This document shows positions 35,410-38,145 of a stretch of 50,754 nt of DNA, one piece after another. Position 1 is the stretch's first letter, and each line of letters starts with the position of its first letter. The notes beneath the pieces were generated by a model. That model was not told where the DNA came from. It worked only from the letters and a program-made list of their open reading frames with translations, and ran no database searches. A program made the translations under genes and the position numbers. The DNA is taken from the NCBI GenBank assembly GCA_945865815.1, contig CAMBFR010000018.1:1-50754 (forward strand), written 5' to 3'. The stretch is from Candidatus Sulfopaludibacter sp. SbA3. Its GTDB lineage: Bacteria > Acidobacteriota > Terriglobia > 20CM-2-55-15.

Positions 35410-37605
35410 ATGCCATTACTACTCATTTTTGCACTCCTTCAAGCTCCAATGACGCTGCGGGTCGTGGACCCTTGGGGCCTGCCCGTGCCCGGCGCCAGAA
35501 TCACCGTCGCAGGAGCCGCCATCACCACCAGTGAAACGGGTGAAGCCGCTCTCGCTCAGAATCTCCCGGCGGAATTCGAGATTCAGGTCGAGAGTCCGGG
35601 GTTCCAGCGGTTGACGCGGACCTTCTTAAGGTGGACGGGCACCGAAGTTCTGCAGTTGCAGCTTGGATCTGTGATGGACCGGATTACCGTGACGGCTACG
35701 CGGGGCGAGCGCCTTTCGGGCGAAACCGCATCGAGCGTGACCGTTCTCGATTCCGAAGCGATTCGCACCTCGCCGGCCCGGTCGGTTGACGACGTCCTGC
35801 GCCAGGTGCCCGGCTTCAGCCTTCTGCGCCGAGCCGGAAGCGTCGCTTCGCATCCCACAACGCAGGGCGTGTCGTTGCGGGGAATCGGCCCGAGCGGCGC
35901 CAGCCGGACGCTGGTCCTGGCAGACGGGCTGCCGATGAACGATCCCTTCGGAAGCTGGGTTTACTGGAATCGCGTTCCCAAATTATCGATCGATTCCATT
36001 GAAGTCGTCCGCGGAGGCGCGTCGGACCTCTACGGCAGCCAGGCACTGGGCGGCGTTATCCATCTCCGTACTCGGAGACCTGCGCCGAAGACTTTCCTGG
36101 GCGAGATCTCATACGGAGAACGCGCCCAATTGCAGGGCTCGTTCTACACAAGCGACGTCCGTGGCAACTGGGGATACTCCCTTTCCGCGGAGGGCTTCCG
36201 GACCAACGGTTATATGGCCGTGGGCCCCGGGCAGCGTGGAAGGGCCGATCAGTCGGTGACTTCCGGCTATCGAACTGCGGTTGCGCATGTGGAGAGGCGG
36301 TTCGGGGCCTCCACGCGTGCTTACTCGAACTTCGTACTGTCAACGGAGGACCGGGAAAACGGCACCGTCCTCCAGCGGAACGATACGAATTTCCGGCAGG
36401 TCTCCGTGGGCGGCGAGTTCGAACATGCCCGCGGACAAACGGAAGTGCAGTTGTTTGGCGGGTCCGAAAGTTTCGACAGCAGTTTCACCACGTTGCTTGC
36501 CGCGCGCGCAACCGAACGCATGGATTCGATGCATCGGGTCCCGCTCGGTTATGGCGGAGCGCAGGGGCATACGCTGCTGACGTTCGGCCGCCACACGATC
36601 GTGACGGGAATGGAGTTCCGGAACGTCCGCGGCCTGACTCACGAAACGCTGTTCACGAACGGAGTCCGGTCGGGCGTTCGGAAAACAGGAGGAACGCAGC
36701 GCACCTTTGGGGCGTTTCTGGAAGATGTTGTCGCCATCACTCCGCGGGCCGATGTGACGTGGAGCGTCCGCTGGGACAGGTGGCGGAACGAAGACATTGG
36801 CGGCGCCACCGCGATCGAATCGAATTGGAGCCCGAAGCTTGGCACGTCCGTTCGGGTGCATCCCAACTGGACGGTGCACGCGGCAGCCTATGGCGCATTC
36901 CGTGCGCCCACTTTGAACGAACTGTACCGTCCATTCCAGGTTGGCACCGCGCTCACGCAGGCCAATTCCCTGCTCGGCGACGAGCGGCTCCGAGGAGTTG
37001 AAACCGGCGTGGAAACCCGCGCGCTCGGCGGCCGCGTTCACGTCCGCGCGGGCGGGTATTGGACAAGGCTTGCAGGGACCGTGGCGAACATTACGCTGAT
37101 TCAGACTCCACAACAAACGATCCGGCAACGCCGGAACCTGGGGACGACGCGATCGCGAGGACTCGAGACTGAAGTGGAACTCCGGCCGCATCGCCTGTGG
37201 ACAATTACGGCAGGCTATCTGCTGTCGCAGGGTGTGGTCCTGAAGTATCCCACGTCACCGAATCTGCAGGGACGGCGGATTCCACAGGTGCCCCGCCATC
37301 AGTATTCGCTGGCAACCCAGGGCACGTTCCTCGGCAATTACCGGGTGAATTTCCAGGCTCGGGGCGCCGGCCGCCAGTTTGAGGACGACTTGAACAGCCC
37401 CACCTTGCGCCTGGCGAAGCTCTTCGTGATGGATGCGTATCTGGCGCGTTCATTAGGAAGGGATGTCGAGGTTTTCATAGCCGGCGAAAATCTGACGGAC
37501 TCCGTAATTGAAGTGGGACGAAACCCCGTGGTCAATCCAATCATCACCCTGGGTATGCCGCGCATACTGAGAGCCGGCCTGACGGTGAGACTCGGATCGC
37601 GATGA
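35410..37605 (+). CDS. TonB-dependent outer-membrane receptor
   Basis: The 731-residue protein has a short signal peptide (MPLLLIFALLQAP). A carboxypeptidase-regulatory-like domain (about 14-85, LRVVDPWGLPVPGARITVAG) follows, then a plug domain (about 95-215, with VDDVLRQVPGFSLLRRAGS and IDSIEVVRGGASDLYGSQAL) and a beta-barrel. It closes with GENLTDSVIEVGRNP and PRILRAGLTVRLGSR. Receptors of this build import siderophores, cobalamin or oligosaccharides. The plug resembles BtuB/FecA-type receptors, but the ligand is not readable and no transport partner genes are adjacent. Confidence 0.92.
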   Translation: MPLLLIFALLQAPMTLRVVDPWGLPVPGARITVAGAAITTSETGEAALAQNLPAEFEIQVESPGFQRLTRTFLRWTGTEVLQLQLGSVMDRITVTATRGERLSGETASSVTVLDSEAIRTSPARSVDDVLRQVPGFSLLRRAGSVASHPTTQGVSLRGIGPSGASRTLVLADGLPMNDPFGSWVYWNRVPKLSIDSIEVVRGGASDLYGSQALGGVIHLRTRRPAPKTFLGEISYGERAQLQGSFYTSDVRGNWGYSLSAEGFRTNGYMAVGPGQRGRADQSVTSGYRTAVAHVERRFGASTRAYSNFVLSTEDRENGTVLQRNDTNFRQVSVGGEFEHARGQTEVQLFGGSESFDSSFTTLLAARATERMDSMHRVPLGYGGAQGHTLLTFGRHTIVTGMEFRNVRGLTHETLFTNGVRSGVRKTGGTQRTFGAFLEDVVAITPRADVTWSVRWDRWRNEDIGGATAIESNWSPKLGTSVRVHPNWTVHAAAYGAFRAPTLNELYRPFQVGTALTQANSLLGDERLRGVETGVETRALGGRVHVRAGGYWTRLAGTVANITLIQTPQQTIRQRRNLGTTRSRGLETEVELRPHRLWTITAGYLLSQGVVLKYPTSPNLQGRRIPQVPRHQYSLATQGTFLGNYRVNFQARGAGRQFEDDLNSPTLRLAKLFVMDAYLARSLGRDVEVFIAGENLTDSVIEVGRNPVVNPIITLGMPRILRAGLTVRLGSR

Positions 37606-37642
37606 TGGACCGGCGTGGAATTTCTAATGAAAGGGCAACCTG

Positions 37643-38101
37643 ATGAATGTTCATACGTCCAGAGTTCGCATCGTTCAGGAGAAGCGTCCGCTCCGGCTGG
37701 CTTATATCGAAAATTTTCCCGATCCGGTGCGGTTCGGCGTCCACGGCGGGATTAAGCACTTCTACAAAATGGAGCCCGAAGAGGATCTTCCAGCAACACT
37801 CGACTACCTTGTTGCCGCGGTCGCCGGCTGACTGACCGGCACCCTGGGCGGCGCCCTGGAATCGCGAGGAATCCCGGCTTATCCGGAAAAACTGACGTCC
37901 GACGTTGAAGGCGACATCGAAGAGGTGGACGGGAAGATGGTCGTCACGCGGATTCGCGTGAAATACAACGTCAAGGTCCCAAAAGGTAAACGCGCCGACG
38001 CGGAACGCGCCATCGAGGTCCACGAGCGCGGCTGCCCGGCCGCGATCAGCGTGAAGCGAGGGATTGCCATCGAGTACTCGGCGAATATCGAGGAGAACTA
38101 G
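37643..38101 (+). CDS. OsmC-family protein with in-frame TGA at the redox cysteine (candidate selenoprotein)
   Basis: The frame starts with ATG at 37643 and runs to TAG at 38101, interrupted once by TGA at 37829-37831 (codon 63). Before it the sequence reads LPATLDYLVAAVAG, after it LTGTLGGALESRGIPA, ending with SVKRGIAIEYSANIEEN. OsmC-like peroxidases of this subgroup have a cysteine exactly between AAVAG and LTGTL, and a second one in HExGCP, here HERGCPAAISV. The TGA therefore replaces the first redox cysteine, as expected for selenocysteine. Read through, the protein has 152 residues, normal for the family, and no other stop or frameshift. A small hairpin follows at 37843-37859. The alternative is a nonsense mutation of TGC or a sequence error. 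Confidence 0.75.
37843..37859 (+). promoter_or_regulatory. Candidate bacterial SECIS hairpin
   Basis: Just after the in-frame TGA the sequence CC-U-GGGC-GGC-GCCC-U-GG can fold into a stem of 4 plus 2 base pairs with one U-U mismatch and an apical loop GGC (37850-37852), 18 nt after the TGA. Bacterial SECIS models ask for a small apical loop with a G in its first two positions about 16-37 nt from the TGA. The hairpin fits but is short, and GC-rich DNA forms such hairpins by chance. Confidence 0.45.
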
Positions 38102-38109
38102 AATCCGGT

Positions 38110-38145
38110 TTCACAGCGATCTGGCGCGCGCCAGATCGCTGTGAA
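38110..38145. repeat. Perfect 36-bp palindrome between convergent genes
   Basis: Arms TTCACAGCGATCTGGCGC and its exact complement meet with no loop. It lies 8 bp after the OsmC stop and 17 bp before the end of the convergent lectin-like gene. It could act as a bidirectional transcription end or processing site, although there is no T tract. A dimeric DNA-binding site is another possibility. Confidence 0.7.

Follow-up and report, generated by a model that had tools for sequence, protein, structure and literature searches.

A predicted OsmC-family selenoprotein gene in Candidatus Sulfopaludibacter and its mostly selenocysteine-encoding relatives

A gene with a TGA codon inside its reading frame is located at 37643–38101 on the forward strand of a 50,754-nucleotide contig of Candidatus Sulfopaludibacter sp. 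SbA3 (CAMBFR010000018.1). The locus raises the question of whether this codon ends the protein or is read as selenocysteine (Sec), and, in the latter case, how the protein is related to the selenoproteins already described and what reaction it might catalyze. The whole contig is referred to here as the window; it is contig 18 of a draft MAG of 4.34 Mb that is 98% complete. A first-pass annotation made from the sequence alone had proposed an OsmC-family selenoprotein. We compared this proposal with the homologues of the gene, the Sec-associated genes of the source genome, and the known OsmC families and structures.

Gene structure and family assignment

The frame starts with ATG, comprises 152 codons followed by TAG, and contains one in-frame TGA only, which is codon 63 (37829–37831, forward strand) and is followed by 89 sense codons. 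The start region and the frame are conserved in relatives, and a possible ribosome-binding site (AAAGGG, 37630–37635, forward strand) lies 7 nt before the ATG. In the alignment with E. coli OsmC, codon 63 corresponds to Cys59, the peroxidatic cysteine, and the TGC codon at 38033–38035 (forward strand; Cys131 in the motif HERGCP) corresponds to Cys125. The annotated position of a single TGA at a redox cysteine in an otherwise open frame and the retention of the second redox cysteine were both borne out. Cys131 is the predicted resolving cysteine and was present in all 101 homologues collected. When the TGA was translated as a residue, the protein matched Pfam PF02566 over residues 50–145 with 53.8 bits (gathering score of 27.5; E value of 2.8e-14), and the OsmC family identity, which had been proposed without a search, was confirmed.

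Conservation of the TGA and selection downstream of it

Homologues were pooled, with near-duplicates mostly removed, to give 101 sequences. At the equivalent of codon 63, TGA was found in 95 and a Cys codon in six, and none had another in-frame stop; a TGA shared to this extent is far beyond chance. Among the best 80 loci of the named genome collection, 75 had TGA and five had TGC at the same codon, again with no other in-frame stop. Twelve loci with the motif GN or AU were included, a wider motif rule assigning all. The named phyla with members of the family were Acidobacteriota, Rokuibacteriota, Methylomirabilota, Bacillota, Myxococcota, Tectimicrobiota, Nitrospinota, Hydrogenedentota, and Thermodesulfobacteriota, and further members were found in KSB1 and ANGP1. 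The Bacillota members are mostly cultured isolates (e.g., Peribacillus kribbensis DSM 17871 and Thalassobacillus devorans), which open the family to bench testing. In an even sample of the phylum (396 genomes), every match at E ≤ 1e-15 had one TGA. In a set of 200 relatives, the matches formed a clean group, in which almost every member had a single TGA and a few had no TGA. The ordinary OsmC proteins followed below a gap, at less than about 35 bits.

One congeneric genome was found, which is also named Candidatus Sulfopaludibacter (Acidobacteriota). Comparison of the window gene with its homologue in the congener (L074) gave 22 synonymous differences and one non-synonymous difference in the 62 codons before the TGA, and 15 synonymous and seven non-synonymous differences in the 89 codons after it (dN of 0.041 and dS of 0.29 after the TGA; dN/dS of about 0.14). 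For about 240 pairs of family members, which are non-independent, the median omega was about 0.14 downstream of the TGA and 0.12 upstream. As purifying selection acts downstream of the TGA, this part of the gene is evidently translated and maintained as protein sequence.

A single stop codon suffices to make a pseudogene, and the TGA could in principle be a chance nonsense mutation or a sequencing error. However, the same TGA recurs in assemblies made independently for at least nine phyla, some of them of cultured isolates, and the frame beyond it is under purifying selection and carries no frameshift or other stop. Decay in relatives, which had been named as a sign of a pseudogene, was not seen: the TGA stood at the same codon across the phyla. 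An explanation by pseudogenization or assembly error is barely credible.

Two near-identical copies of the gene were observed in the congener (G001), on contigs C117 and C102; they share 95% and 94% identity with the window gene, and both contain the TGA. They may represent a duplication or a mixture of strains.

Selenocysteine machinery

The presence of selA, selB, selC, and selD, which the first-pass annotation had left to be checked, was established for the source genome. A tRNA-SeC gene with the anticodon UCA was retrieved together with selB (387 bits; cut-off of 242), selA (564 bits; cut-off of 268), and selD (L070, G000:C15:15603-16520; 362 bits; cut-off of 125), and the Sec system is complete. 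The selD gene also contains one in-frame TGA, and thus, SelD of the source genome is probably a selenoprotein as well.

The distribution of tRNA-Sec was compared between genomes with the two forms of the gene, where a tRNA-Sec was regarded as clear above about 56 bits (other long-arm tRNAs reach about 51). Of the 35 genomes with the TGA form, 30 had a clear tRNA-Sec, compared with none of the five Cys-only genomes (hypergeometric p of about 4e-4, uncorrected for relatedness). One genome (G097) harbored both the TGA and Cys forms and a tRNA-Sec. In the remaining five TGA genomes (G201, G209, and G207, with the loci L123, L114, and L147, and G042 and G043), no tRNA-Sec was found above the background of long-arm tRNAs. 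All five are drafts, of which G042 is about 98% complete, and incomplete assembly or a divergent tRNA-Sec may account for them.

These few genomes would also fit a selenium-free reading of UGA as Trp, Cys, or Arg, in which the decoding tRNA is either near-cognate or altered. On the other hand, Cys is the sole alternative residue at the site, the source genome has the full Sec system, the Cys-only genomes have no tRNA-Sec, and SECIS-like hairpins are restricted to the TGA genes. Selenium-free read-through was accordingly judged very unlikely. The use of UGA as a general sense codon was also considered and rejected: ordinary genes of the window, such as that of a TonB-dependent receptor, end in TGA, and therefore, UGA is not simply reassigned.

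The annotated selenoprotein is strongly supported by the sel genes, the conservation of the TGA across phyla, and the purifying selection after it, and on this comparative evidence UGA63 is very probably decoded as Sec. The decoding would be carried out by SelB and tRNA-Sec(UCA), for which SelA and SelD encoded in this genome would be the suppliers, and an mRNA hairpin just 3' of the UGA would assist it.

SECIS-like hairpins

The first-pass annotation had described a small hairpin, looped by GGC, at a distance of 18 nt downstream of the TGA. It is present in the window gene at 37843–37859 on the forward strand (CC.GGGC-GGC-GCCC.GG; six base pairs and one mismatch; loop at 37850–37852), but when it was compared alone with synonymous-codon shuffles, it was no better than chance (p of about 0.28). 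The hairpin of this gene is thus weak evidence, and the case for a SECIS comes from the homologues, in most of which the distance from the UGA to the loop is about 26 nt. The hairpin is identical in L074, and the ten codons after the TGA show no synonymous difference between the two genes.

The members of the family were scored, relative to synonymous-codon shuffles, for their best hairpin that had a G at loop position 1 or 2 and its loop 16–37 nt after the UGA. The mean z was −1.79 for the 95 Sec genes, −0.25 for a control region within these genes, and +0.43 for the six Cys genes. In the nine Bacillota tested, the stem GCGCGCT-GGA-RGCGCGY retained six or seven of seven pairs (p of 0.0005–0.02); codon usage for this test was taken from flanking genes, and third positions in the Bacillota members are mostly A+T-rich, as opposed to the G+C-rich stem. 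The loop is most commonly 25–26 nt after the UGA in the family, and another set of genes, including the window gene, has it at 17–20 nt. The site of the commoner hairpin (37851–37867, forward strand) is degraded to four of seven pairs in the window gene. The hairpin at 37843–37859 is a plausible candidate for the window gene's own SECIS.

Relationship to known OsmC families

A predicted OsmC-like selenoprotein is already known as a kind. It was described by Zhang et al. in 2005 (PMC1088965) and in the GOS survey of 2008 (PMC2398784), and the reviews (PMC9312934, PMC13188914) list one predicted family; the redox motif tabulated for it is UxxT (PMC1088965, PMC2398784, PMC9312934, PMC13188914). 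The NCBIfam family NF041052 (OsmC_like_Se) appears, from its motif and name, to be this family of 2005. Its members (Nitrospinota, Tectomicrobia, and Rokubacteria) share with the window family the PF02566 superfamily and a TGA-encoded Sec at the peroxidatic position. They differ in the motif, which is GFULLTQ or AFULMTQ, corresponding to UxxT, in NF041052 and U-[LM]-x-G-[TN] in the window family; Gly at +3 from Sec or Cys is found in 101 of 101 members of the latter. Assignment of the window protein to NF041052 was rejected, as it scored 19.1 bits compared to the cut-off of 95, contains no UxxT, and falls in a separate clade.

A maximum-likelihood tree recovered the window family and NF041052 as distinct clades, with support of 97/97 and 100/99, respectively, and placed the Cys-type OsmC groups outside both; some branches are long, so that the deep order is unsure, while the separation of the two Sec families is clear. 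The OsmC-like selenoproteins from marine surveys, which the first-pass annotation had mentioned, are of the UxxT/NF041052 type, and the window gene represents another, new Sec subfamily of the known superfamily.

A third group of Sec-containing OsmC proteins was found in a COG1765-like group (L166, L188, and L189), in which an in-frame TGA occupies the same fold position as in the window gene. Its motif is LG[TSA]U[TM][SC][MI]T (LGTUTSMT, LGAUMCMT, and LGSUTSIT), and its Sec members are scattered among Cys relatives with LG[SA]CTSMT, possibly reflecting repeated exchange between Cys and Sec. From the separate Sec clades and this third group amid Cys proteins, the OsmC superfamily seems to have taken up or lost Sec more than once. 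Within the window family, the Cys clade is nested among Sec members in the tree as drawn, but a tree that unites all Sec members fits just as well (AU p of 0.51), and the direction from Sec to Cys is thus unsupported.

Sec forms far outnumber Cys forms in the window family, which is unusual. Neither this subfamily nor its wide spread or Sec-dominated make-up was found in the open-access papers searched, a scope that leaves priority uncertain. The deep-Sep study of 2025 makes no mention of OsmC, and the reviews tabulate the UxxT family only. Searches for Cys/TGA pairs and the homology filter of deep-Sep may overlook families in which Cys homologues are scarce (PMC12013277), and an OsmC subfamily dominated by Sec provides a test of such blind spots. 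As no NCBIfam model reaches its cut-off for the window family, current annotation probably truncates or overlooks its genes.

Taken jointly, the following description is, in our judgment, slightly favored. The window gene would belong to an uncatalogued selenoprotein family, an OsmC subfamily defined by U-[LM]-x-G-[TN]. Most members of the subfamily would contain Sec, which was possibly present from its origin, and it would span at least nine phyla, with culturable Bacillaceae among its hosts. Its active site would be devoid of the canonical Glu, and in some lineages its SECIS would lie about 18 nt after the UGA rather than at the distance of about 26 nt seen in others. The Cys versions would form a single clade, most of them in genomes that lack tRNA-Sec, and perhaps reflect replacement of Sec by Cys.

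Two further observations concern other OsmC proteins. Several TGA-bearing copies of NF041052-type Sec OsmC per genome were seen in Nitrospinota and related MAGs (G200 and G202, the genomes of L117 and L122; also L175 and L176). The source genome of the window harbors Cys-type OsmC domains (L157, G000:C91:2846-3856; also L154 and L158), in tandem in one long frame of 476 aa.

Fold, active site, and predicted function

An AlphaFold2 model, built with an alignment of 22 members, had a pLDDT of 95.7. Its best matches among solved structures were OsmC, Ohr, and YhfA over nearly the whole length (Z of 11–15, with a top value of 15.1). The second-best match (Z of 14.3) was structure 1ml8, which we take to be E. 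coli YhfA; this protein has Cys and is placed elsewhere in the tree. The E. coli OsmC/Ohr hydroperoxide reductases have the same fold (Z of about 11–13), with the two redox residues aligned as described above. The window family differs from them in having Sec for Cys and Leu, Ile, or Val at the position of the catalytic Glu, and the window protein scored 28.3 bits with TIGR03562, below the curated cut-off of 85.8.

Ohr and OsmC enzymes reduce organic hydroperoxides by a peroxidatic Cys that is aided by Arg and Glu (PMC5962072). In XfOhr, the catalytic Glu51 is located ten residues before the redox Cys61 (PMC5962072). The alignment of the window family retained both redox positions (U/C63 and C131) in 101 of 101 members. 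The canonical Glu at −10 from the redox residue was absent from all 101, which have Leu, Ile, or Val at this position, and peroxidase activity is therefore uncertain. Two nearby residues, Asp54 (−9) and Thr52 (−11), are invariant. R75 and R122, which are candidates for the catalytic Arg near the redox residue, were nearly invariant in the same alignment.

For the function, we lean slightly towards a thiol-dependent hydroperoxidase that uses Sec63 and Cys131 and works without the canonical Glu of Ohr/OsmC, with the catalytic cycle and the substrate deduced from the fold together with the pair of conserved redox residues. Sec63 would take the place of the peroxidatic Cys, and the invariant Cys131 that of the resolving Cys. 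The selenolate of Sec63 would reduce an organic or lipid hydroperoxide and become a selenenic acid, which Cys131 would resolve to a selenenylsulfide, and the latter may then be recycled by a cellular dithiol.

The protein could instead contain Sec and be another kind of redox protein with no hydroperoxidase activity. The replacement of Glu by Leu, Ile, or Val, with an invariant Asp at −9 and Thr at −11 instead, would suit this possibility, as would the closeness of the fold to YhfA, since YhfA-type members of the superfamily are of unknown activity (PMC5962072, PMC4069020). The gene neighborhood gave no hint of function either, as ten neighboring proteins from distant lineages were mutually unrelated. 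This possibility is at odds with the retention of both OsmC/Ohr redox positions in all 101 members and with Sec at the peroxidatic position, which fits peroxide chemistry. We give it a serious but less than even chance, and the Sec63/Cys131 hydroperoxidase remains the preferred prediction.

Flanking sequence

The gene of the TonB-dependent receptor, identified by Pfam, is located at 35410–37605 on the same strand, 37 bp upstream of the OsmC gene. Co-transcription of the two genes is possible; the link between them is weak, as the neighbors are not conserved in distant relatives. A comparison with the plasmid collection gave no match. Just past the stop codon, at 38110–38145, there is a perfect 36-nt palindrome (TTCACAGCGATCTGGCGC/GCGCCAGATCGCTGTGAA) without a T run, which is possibly a terminator or a regulatory hairpin.
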